Below are positions 3,011 through 9,734 of a stretch of DNA of 54,510 nucleotides, in pieces; the stretch's first letter is position 1; the number at the start of each line of letters is the position of its first letter. This DNA is from a virus. The position numbers and the translations under genes were made by a program. The stretch is taken from IMG/VR virus record IMGVR_UViG_3300036770_001615, positions 1-54,510 of that record; one strand, given 5' to 3'. The notes beneath the pieces are model-generated. The model ran no database searches, had not been told where the DNA came from, and was given only the letters and a program-made list of their open reading frames with translations.

Positions 3011-3087
3011 CTGCCCGTAGCTCAGTTGGATAGAGCAATGGCCTTCTAAGCCATCGGTCGGACGTTCGAATCGTCTCGGGCAGGCCA
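3011..3087 (+). tRNA. tRNA-Arg(TCT)
   Basis: Acceptor CTGCCCG/CGGGCAG, discriminator G, CCA; anticodon loop CTTCTAA giving TCT. Confidence 0.92.
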
Positions 3088-3097
3088 AATTGGAGAT

Positions 3098-3607
3098 ATG
3101 ATGGATATAACTGATTATGTAATTGAATTACCCTTCTTAAAATATGATAAGCAGGCATTAATTGATTACATGAAAGGTAAGGGTCCTTGGGTCAGTGAAG
3201 GATATGCTAATAAGTATCTACGACCTAAAGACAGTATAGACCTATTTTCAGATATCTATAAACAGATCCCTGAATTTGAAATTGACATTGGAAGAGTATT
3301 TTTTGCTGAATTAGAACCGTTTCAGTTTTTGCATCCACATAAGGATTTATATAGAAAAGCATCTATAAACATTCCTTTGATTGGGGATTTCACAAAAACG
3401 CCGGTTACCTTTTATAGTGAGAAATCTACCAAAAAAGAACACATTTTGTATAAACATTGCTATAATGATGTTGCAACAGTAATTAATACTGAAGTATATC
3501 ATGGAGTAGTAAATACAACGAATGAAATTAGATATATATTTTGTTTGAGTGTATATCCTGATTGGAATACAATTAAACAAGTATATGAAAAGTATAACGG
3601 GGTGTAG
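3098..3607 (+). CDS. Asp/Asn-hydroxylase-like cupin-fold dioxygenase
   Basis: This 169-residue protein has the layout of Fe(II)/2-oxoglutarate aspartyl/asparaginyl hydroxylases: FLHPHKDLYRKASINIPL supplies a His and Asp, and INTEVYHGVVNTTNEIRYIF supplies the distal His and the 2OG-binding Arg. Such enzymes hydroxylate protein or small-molecule substrates in the cytoplasm. ATG ATG at 3098/3101 follows GGAGAT; either may be used. The stop codon overlaps tRNA-Pro. It is one of about eleven dioxygenase-like genes in the window; the substrate is unknown. Confidence 0.6.
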   Translation: MMDITDYVIELPFLKYDKQALIDYMKGKGPWVSEGYANKYLRPKDSIDLFSDIYKQIPEFEIDIGRVFFAELEPFQFLHPHKDLYRKASINIPLIGDFTKTPVTFYSEKSTKKEHILYKHCYNDVATVINTEVYHGVVNTTNEIRYIFCLSVYPDWNTIKQVYEKYNGV

Positions 3608-3675
3608 CGCAGTCTGGTTAGCGCATCTGCTTTGGGAGCAGAGGGTCGTGAGTTCGAATCCCACCACCCCGACCA
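3598..3675 (+). tRNA. tRNA-Pro(TGG)
   Basis: Acceptor CGGGGTG/CACCCCG with the C1:G72 pair typical of Pro, ACCA; anticodon loop TTTGGGA giving TGG. It overlaps the last ten bases of the preceding CDS. Confidence 0.93.
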
Positions 3676-3680
3676 TTATT

Positions 3681-3755
3681 GGAAGTTTAGCTCAGCGGTA
3701 GAGCAACGCCCTTACAAGGCGAAGGTCATAGGTTCAATCCCTATAACTTCCACCA
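3681..3755 (+). tRNA. tRNA-Val(TAC)
   Basis: Acceptor GGAAGTT/AACTTCC with ACCA; anticodon loop CTTACAA giving TAC. Confidence 0.93.
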
Positions 3756-3801
3756 ATTCTTTGATTGTCACAAAAATTTAATACAATTTTTTACAGGTAA
3801 T

Positions 3802-3809
3802 AATAAATA
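3802..3809 (+). promoter_or_regulatory. T4-like late promoter box
   Basis: AATAAATA, 30 bases upstream of the GNAT start; leaves a leader with an AAAGG ribosome site. Confidence 0.45.
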
Positions 3810-3839
3810 CGAATATTATAATACATAAAAGGTAGCGAC

Positions 3840-4274
3840 ATGTTAAACATTATCAATAGTATCAATGATCCGCTACTAAGTTACATCAAAGATGATCCAG
3901 TGAGACCCGAAATTCCTGTAGAGTTTCGGGTTTCTAATTTTAGATTTGTTGGCGCCTTAGTAGAGGATAAACCACAAGCAATAGTTTGCGTAAGCCTACA
4001 TGACTTTATACCCGAATCAGTAGAAGATTTATCTAGAGAATCAGTATCTCCTGATACAGCAATCTTCTATACGATTTGGAGTTATAAAGCAGGAGCGGCT
4101 AAAGATTTGCTATTCTCTACAGTTAAAGAGATCCAACGTATGTTTCCTAACATCACACGTTTTGTAACACTAAGTCCTAAGACTGAAATGGCAAAACGAT
4201 TCCATTTGCGTAATGGAGCGTCGGTGTTGAAGGAAAATCTCACAACGGTGAATTACGAATATAAAGTCAGTTGA
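3840..4274 (+). CDS. GNAT-fold acetyltransferase-like protein
   Basis: This 144-residue protein ends in a GNAT-like pattern: TVKEIQRMFPNITRFVTLSP, then MAKRFHLRNGASVLKENLTTVNYEY, the usual helix and last strands where acceptor specificity lies. The classical acetyl-CoA loop (Q/RxxGxG/A) is weak; KAGAAKDLLFSTV may replace it. GNAT proteins move acyl groups from CoA to amines. An AAAGG ribosome site precedes ATG 3840, with a late box upstream. Acceptor unknown; activity not certain. Confidence 0.55.
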   Translation: MLNIINSINDPLLSYIKDDPVRPEIPVEFRVSNFRFVGALVEDKPQAIVCVSLHDFIPESVEDLSRESVSPDTAIFYTIWSYKAGAAKDLLFSTVKEIQRMFPNITRFVTLSPKTEMAKRFHLRNGASVLKENLTTVNYEYKVS

Positions 4275-4423: not shown

Positions 4424-4452
4424 TTGACAAATAATCAGAGTTGTAGTAGAAT
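4424..4452 (+). promoter_or_regulatory. sigma70-type promoter of the boxA-led tRNA/ncRNA unit
   Basis: TTGACA (4424-4429), 17-bp spacer, TAGAAT (4447-4452), preceded by the GGC found in the phage promoter family. It is followed at once by the boxB/boxA-like leader. Confidence 0.75.
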
Positions 4453-4462
4453 GCTTATATTC

Positions 4463-4490
4463 GCTGAGAAATCAGCAACGTTCTTTAAAA
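4463..4490 (+). promoter_or_regulatory. rrn-like antitermination leader (boxB + boxA), copy 1
   Basis: Hairpin GCTGA-GAAA-TCAGC (4463-4476) followed by ACGTTCTTTAAAA (boxA-like, about 4480-4490). Bacterial rRNA leaders use boxA to recruit NusB/S10 and protect untranslated transcripts from Rho. The same sequence recurs at 7655-7682 in front of the giant ncRNA. Confidence 0.65.
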
Positions 4491-4509: not shown

Positions 4510-4596
4510 GCCCGGGTGGTGAAATAGGTAGACACAAGAGACTTAAAATCTCTCGCCCGAAAGGGCGTGCCGGTTCGATTCCGGCCCCGGGCACCA
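4510..4596 (+). tRNA. tRNA-Leu(TAA)
   Basis: Canonical class II leucine tRNA: acceptor GCCCGGG/CCCGGGC, ACCA, anticodon loop CTTAAAA giving TAA, long variable arm CGCCCGAAAGGGCG. Confidence 0.94.
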
Positions 4597-6840: not shown

Positions 6841-7050
6841 GCAGACCCCGGTTTACACTTTTACGTTATATAAAGTGGGCAATTGTCGTAGCCATACGGA
6901 CACGGTAAGATTGTTATAGACCGCAAGGCTCACTATATGGGCGACTTGAGACACACAATCGGGCAGAAGCAAAACTGACCTAGATGCAAATGTTGACGGA
7001 CAGGGTAACAACTCAGTTCGGGGCTAAATGGGATTAGTGGCCGAACATTT
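6841..7050 (+). ncRNA. Structured non-coding RNA candidate upstream of a dioxygenase gene
   Basis: About 210 nt without an ORF. Visible helices: CACTTT/AAAGTG (around 6857-6878), GATTGT (6909-6914) with ACAATC (6955-6960) enclosing a GCAA-capped hairpin, and GTTCGG/CCGAAC (about 7016-7046) enclosing CTAA/TTAG. This multi-helix pattern resembles the other inter-tRNA RNAs in composition, but it lacks their long closing helix. Confidence 0.45.
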
Positions 7051-7061
7051 TAATATTACAC

Positions 7062-7601
7062 ATGAAACTTAACGACTACATTTTTGTTAGCAAACTTTTT
7101 GATTCACAAGAATGCGATGAAATAATAAACAAAACCAATCAGTATAAATGGCGCCAACATAAATGGAATGCCTCTAATACAAAGGTTAAGTCAGTAGAGG
7201 AAATCGATAACATTCTAGTATGTAATATTGATCCTTTACTTGAAAGTAAAATATCTCCTAAGTTATTGAACGTATTTGGAAAATATAGTATCCTATTTGG
7301 ACCACATAGTGTTCCAATTCAGTTGACTAATCAATGGGATAATATTAGAATAAACAAATATACAGAAGGTGTCGGTATGAGAAATCATATTGATCACGGT
7401 ATAGATAGGGAACATCCTGTACTTACAATCATTGCGTTATTGAATGACGAATTCACAGGTGGTAATACTTTTATCTTAAATGAGGAAGTATTGCTTAAGA
7501 AAGGTGACTGTGTTATCTTTCCTAGTAATTTTATGTATCCACATGAAATTAAACCTGTAGTGAATGGTACAAGATATTCACTAACTACTTGGGCTTATTA
7601 A
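7062..7601 (+). CDS. 2OG-Fe(II) oxygenase, prolyl-4-hydroxylase type
   Basis: This 179-residue protein has all core elements of the family: HxD at His109/Asp111 (MRNHIDHG), distal iron ligand His161 (FMYPHEIKPV), and the 2OG-anchoring Arg171 (GTRYSLTTWAY). The N-terminal 100 residues form the usual helical support. These enzymes couple 2-oxoglutarate decarboxylation to hydroxylation, in the cytoplasm. The start lacks a Shine-Dalgarno sequence and follows an AT-rich TTTAATAT-TACAC. Substrate unknown; protein, nucleotide or glycan are possible. Confidence 0.85.
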   Translation: MKLNDYIFVSKLFDSQECDEIINKTNQYKWRQHKWNASNTKVKSVEEIDNILVCNIDPLLESKISPKLLNVFGKYSILFGPHSVPIQLTNQWDNIRINKYTEGVGMRNHIDHGIDREHPVLTIIALLNDEFTGGNTFILNEEVLLKKGDCVIFPSNFMYPHEIKPVVNGTRYSLTTWAY

Positions 7602-7612
7602 CCCAAAACTGT

Positions 7613-7641
7613 TTGACAAAAAATCAAAAGTAATATACAAT
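7613..7641 (+). promoter_or_regulatory. sigma70-type promoter of the giant ncRNA
   Basis: TTGACA (7613-7618), 17-bp spacer, TACAAT (7636-7641), directly followed by the second boxB/boxA leader. Confidence 0.75.
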
Positions 7642-7654
7642 ACGTTGTATTGAC

Positions 7655-7682
7655 GCTGAGAAATCAGCAACGTTCTTTAAAA
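7655..7682 (+). promoter_or_regulatory. rrn-like antitermination leader (boxB + boxA), copy 2
   Basis: Identical to the copy at 4463: GCTGAGAAATCAGC hairpin, then AACGTTCTTTAAAAA. It is placed just after the promoter of a long untranslated RNA, where Rho protection is most needed. Confidence 0.68.
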
Positions 7683-8400
7683 ATTATTAGTATAAAGGGA
7701 AGTCTTTATACACATGACAATTAAATGTCAGCAAATGAAAGTCACTATTGTTAGTAGCCGGCCAGCCAAAGCAATAGTAAGCAGTGGGGGGCGCAAAACC
7801 CTAGCAAAACCTAGACACACTGGATGAGTAACTGAAGTGACGTACCGAGTCCTGCCCGGGTTTAATTACACAGGTGAATGGTGCTAATAACGATGGTAGC
7901 ACATTTTAGTTGTCAGTTGTATAAAGATTTCAAAGATTGGGGGCATAGCCTCGTTAGAATAAGTGTAGCGATACACCCAAAGCAGAATCCGCCTACAGGA
8001 CTGCACCAGCAATGGTTCATCTATGCAAGCCTGCTCACACCCGTGAGGGTGCGATCACTGATAAGACCGGTGGTTGTAACAATGAAGCAAGTGTGTTGGA
8101 AAGAATGTCTGTTTAAGTCCCCGCAAGGGTAAGACAGGCAGACAGAGAGTAACAGGTGGTGCTGACCTCAACACAAAACCAACTTGTCAATTGGTATGAG
8201 AAAGGGTAGTATATATTGTCCGAAGGGTCGCTCCTAAGGGCGTGTATGCAGTATGAGTGGTTAATGGGTATTGATTACGGGTCAATATACATAAATCGCA
8301 AAATACGTCTGAGTAGTCCGCGAGACAAAAGGAACGTGGTGTGTTGTATTATGTAATCCAAAAGATTATGTAGCAACTGAGGCAGCACATCATAGTAGGT

Positions 8401-8474
8401 TCAGTTATAGCACAACGGTAGTGCAACTCCATTTATCCAGGAGTCGGCTGAAGGTTCAAATCCTTCTAACGATT
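8401..8474 (+). ncRNA. tRNA-like domain inside the giant RNA
   Basis: D-arm TAGCAC-AACGGTA-GTGC and T-arm GAAGG TTCAAAT CCTTC are intact, and ACTCC/GGAGT forms an anticodon-like stem. However, the loop has nine bases, only four acceptor pairs form, and there is no CCA. It looks like a structural tRNA mimic, not a translating tRNA. Confidence 0.55.
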
Positions 8475-9170
8475 ATAAAAACGCAAAGTCTGCCTCGGTT
8501 GTATGTGAAAAGCATCTAACTCTCAGGCCGCAAGGTAACTGAGACTGACGTAACTCGCAAGGTGAAATCAGTTTATGCTAGAAGATTCGTAACGGTTTAG
8601 CGACTGTGAATGGCTCGCAAGGTCAACGGGTAATAAAGCGTAGAGTAGCATATAACGTCAAGTCTACTGCATGACTTTAAACTGCGATGCTGGTAATAGA
8701 CGTAGATACCGCAAGGGTTTACGTGGATATCGGAAGAAAGTATTCTCGCAAGGAATACAATAATGTCCGAGGTATTACTGGCTAACGTGTAATCTCAGCG
8801 TTAGCATTATTCTAAAACACATTCGCAACCACAAGGTAGTGAAATGTACGAGGGGAGTGTGTTTTAGAATAAAAAGTTTTGGTAGTAGCCGTAAGGTGAA
8901 CTACCCGGAGACAAGAAAGAGATTAGGACTGACGAAACTTATTATTGGACTTTTTATCCAATAATGATCAATACGGCAATACGTCTTGAAAAACGTATCG
9001 TGCTTATGTGATCTAGTCTAAACGGTTTTATCTAACCTTCTTGTACTTTGCTGACTAGGAATATGTAGGCCTCTGTGCTTTGTTAAATGTCACTTGCAGG
9101 TTGCATATTGTAATGTTGGTTACTTACTTTTTTGGCTCCGTCACTATTCATTAACATAAAAGGTATTAAA

Positions 9171-9734
9171 ATGGAAATCACACTTCGTAAAGCAAATGCA
9201 CTTCAAAACAACATCAACGATATGTTGAAGTCAATTCAGGTTGCTGATTCAGTTAACCTTAACGAGTTCCAAGATGCAGAAGCCGTAATTGGAACTAAAG
9301 CAGTAGAGGCTACAAAACAATTTCAGCGCCAAGTGGCACTCACCAAAGCATTGTACGATATTCGTACAGAAGTGGCTAATGCTAACCACTTCTCACGTAT
9401 CACAACCATGTTGACTCAAGTTGCAGAACTTGAAAAGTTGATTGGTTTCAATCAAAAAATGGCAGAGCGTAAAGTTCGCCTAGAGGCTGGGGTCATTCGT
9501 GGCAAGTTGGACAAAATTCGCACTGAGGGTCGTTCATTGATCTATGATCGTTACAATGAAATAGAAACTGGACTAACCACTGAAGCAGAGGTTCAGTCAT
9601 ACAAGGATACTGTGGCAAAACTTAAGCGTGAGAAGCAGGCTTTGCAGGATCAAATCTTAGAAGCCAACGTTGGCACTAAGGTAAATCTTAGCGAAACTAC
9701 TGCAAATGTATTGCGTACTGAAGGTTTGCTATAA
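9171..9734 (+). CDS. Coiled-coil phage protein, unknown function (187 aa)
   Basis: ATG 9171 follows AAAGGTATTAAA; a longer frame from 9132 adds an improbable N-terminus and was rejected. The protein is mostly helical with heptad-like stretches (MLTQVAELEKLIGFNQKM; SYKDTVAKLKREKQALQDQ), suggesting an oligomeric coiled coil. No enzymatic motif, signal or membrane segment. It follows the giant RNA with no clear terminator between them, so it may be its downstream partner or only a neighbour. Its last codons overlap a late promoter box. Confidence 0.65.
   Translation: MEITLRKANALQNNINDMLKSIQVADSVNLNEFQDAEAVIGTKAVEATKQFQRQVALTKALYDIRTEVANANHFSRITTMLTQVAELEKLIGFNQKMAERKVRLEAGVIRGKLDKIRTEGRSLIYDRYNEIETGLTTEAEVQSYKDTVAKLKREKQALQDQILEANVGTKVNLSETTANVLRTEGLL

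Follow-up and report, generated by a model that had tools for sequence, protein, structure and literature searches.

A tRNA fold without its acceptor end is maintained in the linker of a large clade of phage GOLLD RNAs

Here we report that the linker of a phage GOLLD RNA holds a tRNA-like domain in which the tRNA fold is under selection and the acceptor end and CCA are lost, and that such a linker marks essentially one large GOLLD clade and not this phage alone. The RNA lies in a virus record of 54,510 nt (IMGVR_UViG_3300036770_001615), analysed over its full length and called the window below. The features of the locus are listed in Table 1.

Results

Identity and extent of the GOLLD RNA

It is near certain that the locus encodes a GOLLD RNA. 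The Rfam GOLLD covariance model matches it along its whole length (model positions 1–416 of 416) with 213.6 bits (E 4.3e-59; gathering score 150), the conserved 3' region is preceded by a separate, less conserved 5' region, and the RNA is part of a virus record of 54.5 kb with tRNA genes nearby, 28 of which are called by ARAGORN in the window besides the GOLLD element. A sequence-only reading of this DNA had proposed a GOLLD-like RNA and had called for a search with the GOLLD, ROOL and HEARO models; the first of these matched, ROOL and HEARO gave no Rfam match between 7000 and 9800 at E-values up to 5, and among the Rfam models GOLLD and tRNA were the only significant ones in the intergenic stretch. 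A low E-value for mt-tmRNA at 7294–7360 was discarded, as this match is far under the gathering score and inside the oxygenase gene. The same reading had described a strong promoter, many GNRA-capped hairpins, a long helix and the lack of any credible ORF, and all of these were borne out: the promoter has 11 of 12 matches, the sequence shows many loops of the GNRA type, helices of 18 nt (94%) and 27 nt (85%) flank the GOLLD RNA, and no credible ORF was found within 7602–9131, the sole frame of at least 80 amino acids inside the RNA being an 84-amino-acid ATG frame at 7878–8132.

Table 1. Features of the GOLLD locus and of its leader (positions in the window).
Feature	Position	Strand	Basis or remark
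Second promoter, boxB-like hairpin and boxA-like leader	4424–4490	+	Before tRNA-Leu(TAA) at 4510, inside the tRNA array
Sigma-70-type promoter TTGACA-17-TACAAT	7613–7641	+	11/12 matches; just past the stop codon of the 2OG-Fe(II) oxygenase gene
boxB-like hairpin GCTGA-GAAA-TCAGC	7655–7668	+	Sequence; hairpins of relatives
boxA-like element GTTCTTTAAAA	7672–7682	+	Exact match to GYTCTTTAANA
Variable leader domain, closed by a 27-nt 85% helix (7699–7725/7905–7931)	7699–7931	+	Helix search
GOLLD 5' domain, start approximate	7932–8335	+	Conserved in close relatives; length as in the cryo-EM RNA
GOLLD 3' domain (RF02032)	8336–8801	+	Full-length Rfam match
Linker-closing helix, 5' strand CTGAGGCAG	8377–8385	+	Covariation
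Acceptor-less tRNA-like domain in the GOLLD linker	8401–8474	+	ARAGORN, Rfam tRNA, alignment of relatives
Inner acceptor	8404–8407/8467–8470	+	Part of tRNA-like domain
D arm	8410–8424	+	Part of tRNA-like domain
Anticodon arm	8426–8444	+	Part of tRNA-like domain; 9-nt loop 8431–8439
T arm	8450–8466	+	Part of tRNA-like domain
Linker-closing helix, 3' strand CTGCCTCGG	8490–8498	+	Helix search, covariation
18-nt 94% helix directly 3' of GOLLD (8807–8824/8855–8872)	8807–8872	+	Helix search

The extent first proposed for the RNA, 7648–9130, does contain GOLLD, but GOLLD proper covers about 7932–8801; 7648–7931 is leader, and 8802–9130 is made up of other structured sequence and a separate conserved element. 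Close relatives are 74–87% identical to the window from a point at 7906–7956 up to the 3' domain, so that the 5' domain measures about 404 nt, compared with residues 1–420 (420 nt) in the GOLLD solved by cryo-EM. The core is about 870 nt long and the cryo-EM RNA 833 nt; the core length is thus ordinary for the family, and the surplus is leader and downstream sequence. The suggestion of a long or new variant consequently fails for length and stands for the acceptor-less linker, which is a variant feature, though a clade-wide one.

Two further conserved noncoding elements were seen beside this locus. One of about 205 nt (6845–7050), between tRNA-Asp and the oxygenase gene, recurs at no fewer than 14 related loci, has 26 pairs in RNAalifold, 16 of them with compensatory changes, and no Rfam match; it is possibly a new structured RNA of phages with tRNA arrays. 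The other (8971–9110), of 125–140 nt and with about 20 related loci, has a short covarying stem and repeated TTTG motifs, does not adjoin GOLLD elsewhere, and gave no Rfam match either. The gene that follows GOLLD (9168–9734) is coiled-coil-like and has no Pfam or PHROG match, and its DNA recurs close to GOLLD in several related phages. Terminase (PF03237) is absent from the window record and from most relatives.

A tRNA body without an acceptor end

The tRNA-like domain sits at the unpaired linker of the Rfam GOLLD model, and ARAGORN calls precisely the ends that the sequence-only reading had given. The cloverleaf and the elbow letters of a functional tRNA are present, with the D arm, the anticodon stem, the T arm and four inner acceptor pairs intact; the seven-pair acceptor stem, the 3' CCA and the 7-nt anticodon loop are not. 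The acceptor consists of pairs 4–7, after which comes GATTATAAA; the outer three pairs are unformed, and the Rfam tRNA model matches at its positions 4–67 only. When the true 5-bp stem is drawn the anticodon loop, AUUUAUCCA, has 9 nt (65 of 70 relatives do have 7), and the 'Ile TAT' call of ARAGORN needs a 7-nt loop with a mismatch. Loss of the CCA and of acceptor pairing had been noted before; this is correct for the CCA and the outer three pairs, but the inner four persist and are conserved in relatives.

To collect relatives, IMG/VR was scanned with three DNA patterns and a profile search was added; together these yielded 263 public viral loci, 199 of them GOLLD-bearing. Among these, 78 nonredundant linkers look tRNA-like and 70 could be parsed into tRNA positions. 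The pattern of the first scan does not touch the linker; with it, the tRNA-like form was found in 11 of 56 nonredundant GOLLDs, all 11 with inner acceptor pairs 4–7 and none with seven pairs or a CCA. Three matches of the pattern AAAAGNYGTAATCTCAGC were not GOLLDs. The domain is present in the Caulobacter phage phiCbK and its kin, in Sinorhizobium phage Phosso, Mesorhizobium phage Cp1R7A-A1, Erythrobacter phages L02 and XM05, and phage DSS3_MAL1; in the last of these an annotated tmRNA (ssrA, 3567–3975 of locus L276) lies directly downstream of GOLLD. As for bacterial genomes, the GOLLDs of three Streptococcus prophages are without a tRNA-like linker, and tRNA-like remnants were seen in those of Glaciecola and of a Bacteroidales MAG. 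Blastn matches in Gordonia GMA2, Klebsiella and the like were rejected, being tRNA-sized stretches only and mostly under annotated tRNAs; GMA2 is a plain tRNA array.

Forty tRNA-like linkers (38 distinct) were aligned without gaps. The helices of acceptor positions 4–7 and of the D, anticodon and T arms are 98.4–99.3% paired in this alignment, both partners vary in 16 of the 18 canonical pairs, and positions 1–3 are paired at 50.9%. Covariation in the domain is 0.794, compared with 0.236 in a shuffled control, which ignores relatedness, and at most 0.168 in a slid control, which retains it. The helix that closes the linker also covaries (0.357 vs 0.136 shuffled, with 98% of cells paired), so that the covarying helices asked for by the sequence-only reading were found both in the domain and around it. 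The residues of the tertiary core (U8, A14, G18, G19, U54, U55, C56 and A58) are invariant or nearly so. A second, simple, anchor-based parse of the 70 linkers, independent of this alignment, has positions 4–7 paired at 96–99% and positions 1–3 at 47, 46 and 54%, which is the shuffle level, and a CCA in two linkers (3%); the 586 standalone tRNAs of the same loci, used as control, have positions 1–3 paired at 89–92% and a CCA in 96%. The two CCA-bearing linkers (L144 and L133) look accidental. A complete seven-pair acceptor was observed in the linkers of L147 and L190, where it is perhaps a recent tRNA capture or the ancestral state. Because the outer acceptor pairs are random and the CCA is absent, the domain cannot be a normal charged tRNA.

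One clade of GOLLD RNAs

A maximum-likelihood tree was made from the 3' domains of 120 nonredundant GOLLDs, leaving out the linker; it was quickly built and is rooted by midpoint only. Three changes on it account for the tRNA-like state, compared with 37.9 after shuffling. Of the 48 GOLLDs without a tRNA-like linker, 46 group in a single clade (SH-aLRT 98), and the domain was lost in two lineages (L242 and L247) that lie within the tRNA-like clade. For 61 of the 70 tRNA-like bodies the nearest sequence is another linker domain and not a standalone tRNA. The simplest reading of these sequences would be one old gain followed by two losses.

The anticodon loop

The commonest loop is CUNUUAA, and U36 is present in 80% of linkers compared with 33% of standalone tRNAs; this dominance is partly due to shared descent. 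In 12 independent pairs of close linkers, differences per site amount to 0.238 in the loop and 0.055 in the rest of the domain, a ratio of 4.3, compared with a loop/body ratio of 0.31 in 105 pairs of standalone tRNAs (Fisher 2e-12, a value that is overstated, as contiguous loop changes may be single events). U33 is constant in all 12 linker pairs. Among the phiCbK-like Caulobacter phages only the loop differs and the rest of the domain is identical: the loop is CGTCCTA in phiCbK and Ccr10, CATCCTA in BL57, and CTCTTAA in CcrMagneto, Karma, Swift and RBC57, with U33 missing in phiCbK and BL57. The whole GOLLDs of phiCbK and CcrMagneto show few differences, five of which are in the anticodon loop. 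Since close relatives switch between Lys-like and Asn-like loops, decoding is not what is kept; the kept feature is a loop whose letters can change but which usually retains the U-turn uridine. Two explanations of the loop sequence were discarded: the linker anticodon shows no association, as complement or as copy, with nearby standalone tRNAs, and pairing of the loop elsewhere in the same RNA finds no compensating change in the phiCbK/CcrMagneto pair.

A leader of the rRNA type

Nearly all close relatives examined have a promoter like that of the window upstream of GOLLD, though its distance varies. Directly after the promoter of the window come a hairpin and, 3' of it, an element that matches the published boxA consensus GYTCTTTAANA (PMC5725501), in the order promoter, boxB, boxA known from rRNA operon leaders (PMC10250234). 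Of 58 nonredundant related GOLLDs, 18 have such a boxA-like element upstream, where 0.15 would be expected from shuffles; elsewhere it was seen in 39 of 2044 windows. That the other relatives lack it is perhaps due to boxA sequences that differ from host to host. Most of the 18 relatives with a boxA have a short hairpin of different sequence at the same place, and in most boxA-bearing loci long helices of differing sequence occupy the place of the 27-nt leader helix, for which a processing role is possible. Antitermination and high expression are predicted for this transcript. The leader has the promoter, hairpin and boxA of the boxB–boxA–boxC leader of rRNA operons but, unlike it, drives stable RNAs of another kind, GOLLD and, from a second copy, the tRNA array.

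Discussion

GOLLD RNAs, their cages, tRNAs in their linkers and one pseudo-tRNA are already known. The env-38 GOLLD was solved as an RNA-only nanocage of 14 chains, in which the linker (residues 497–538) is disordered and points into the cage (PMC12286853). It resembles the RNA described here in its full 3' domain, its separate 5' domain of similar length, the variable linker at the same place, the phage origin and the adjacent tRNAs, and its authors noted that phage tRNAs are sometimes present in the linker, covalently linked to it. The difference lies in the linker itself, 42 nt and disordered in env-38, a folded tRNA-like domain without acceptor end in the window; the words acceptor, anticodon and antitermination are absent from the main text of that report. 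In Mycobacterium aubagnense and relatives a GOLLD lies in a cluster of 32 tRNAs, and that of M. aubagnense is reported to contain a pseudo-tRNA that is not expressed as a tRNA (PMC6582537); the window shares the tRNA array and an internal element of this kind. That case was read as a single pseudogene, whereas here the domain is conserved, covaries and belongs to a large phage clade. The literature that the search covered contained nothing on a uniformly missing acceptor end, on the single clade, on the loop behaviour or on the boxA leader. Bacterial Y RNAs (YrlA), which mimic tRNA, likewise carry a tRNA-like domain as part of a longer noncoding RNA; YrlA is an unrelated RNA that binds the Ro protein and forms no cage.

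Several explanations of the domain have to be weighed. GenBank records and ARAGORN call it a tRNA (tRNA-Lys, -Gly, -Leu or -Arg), as if a working tRNA were released from a GOLLD precursor, and the few members with seven acceptor pairs would fit; we rejected this on the evidence of the four-pair acceptor and the missing CCA, to which are added the anticodon identity that shifts between near-identical phages and the 9-nt loop of the window, and regard it as extremely improbable. A functionless pseudo-tRNA decaying in the linker would agree with the location within a tRNA array, with the precedent of M. aubagnense and with the two lineages that have lost the domain. However, neutral decay accounts neither for stems that remain 98–99% paired through compensatory changes next to a random outer acceptor, nor for an acceptor loss that is uniform and old instead of progressive; given this covariation we rejected it too and give it very little credence.

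Two readings in which the domain has a function are less easily dismissed. The linker might recruit ribosomes, or translation or tRNA-modification factors, through the elbow and the anticodon arm, so as to sequester or handle them late in infection. Ribosomes are stated to bind GOLLD in pull-downs (PMC12286853), and the elbow and the U33 turn that such factors read are kept. The U36–A37 of most loops resembles the substrates of t6A-forming enzymes, and U36 is enriched relative to standalone tRNAs as described above. Such a ligand would not need a loop that changes so fast at positions 34–37, though, and most GOLLDs found by the linker-blind pattern have no tRNA-like linker; we hold this reading to be unlikely. 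The domain could also be a structural filler or an assembly element of the cage, for instance by anticodon–anticodon kissing between chains, or a seed for pairing in trans with another RNA. A U-turn loop favours RNA–RNA pairing, and a self-complementary stretch of 4 nt, mostly UUAA, is present in 45 of 70 linker loops compared with 166 of 787 standalone loops. Self-kissing loops elsewhere in the RNA join the GOLLD half-shells (PMC12286853). Yet the palindrome follows from a Lys/Asn-like loop alone, the loops of the window, phiCbK and BL57 are not self-complementary, and the switch between phiCbK and CcrMagneto has no matching change elsewhere in the RNA, which leaves this explanation decidedly doubtful.

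The explanation that we prefer, tentatively and at somewhat less than even chances, is that the tRNA-like domain is an uncharged tRNA decoy borne by the cage. By analogy with the solved relative, the GOLLD of this phage would most likely assemble into an RNA-only nanocage with the linker inside. In this clade the linker has become a tRNA body with elbow and anticodon arm; having no acceptor end, it cannot be charged or matured as a tRNA and remains in the GOLLD chain, which would give up to 14 tRNA-like domains per cage provided that the oligomer is the same as the solved one. The cage would then display many uncharged tRNA bodies with changeable anticodon loops, and these may hold a host factor, most likely a toxin or defence that cleaves tRNAs, which reads tRNAs at the elbow and anticodon loop; the tRNA array of the phage would thereby be protected. 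The uncharged tRNA shape, its place in the linker, the fast loop and the setting in a tRNA array together fit a bait for such a reader, and phages are known to counter tRNA-cleaving defences by tRNAs with altered anticodon loops (PMC10264068; PMC11455837). Since the linker anticodon is independent of nearby standalone tRNAs, the bait would not be a simple copy of the tRNA to be protected. The RNA's own promoter may ensure that it is made in large amount, and the boxB–boxA leader may prevent early termination of this long untranslated transcript. Against a decoy, one Lactobacillus brevis prophage was reported not to need GOLLD for phage production (PMC7567579), and a bait inside the cage could be hidden if the cage does not open. 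The complete scheme, nanocages of this clade with an inner lining of tRNA decoys that lack the acceptor and undergo diversifying selection in their anticodon loops, acting as a sponge against host tRNA-cleaving defences and produced from a borrowed rRNA antitermination leader, is offered with low confidence.

One practical consequence concerns annotation. Databases list the domain as tRNA-Lys, -Gly, -Leu or -Arg (in the phiCbK-like phages as tRNA-Lys or tRNA-Gly), and phage tRNA counts are thereby inflated; GenBank tRNA genes that are in fact GOLLD linkers include those at 3091–3162 of phiCbK (locus L265), 2091–2162 of CcrMagneto (L266), 3098–3169 of Cp1R7A-A1 (L274) and 3079–3154 of DSS3_MAL1. 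An rRNA-like leader would account for the production in quantity of a long RNA that is not translated. The fast change of the anticodon loop suggests that the partner of the domain reads tRNA anticodons, and in the laboratory Caulobacter phages phiCbK and CcrMagneto, whose GOLLDs are nearly identical otherwise, the loop has been exchanged by nature. A conserved, uncharged tRNA-like domain, at a site that lies inside in the solved cage, gives a concrete and testable hint of the cargo that at least one GOLLD lineage may have.
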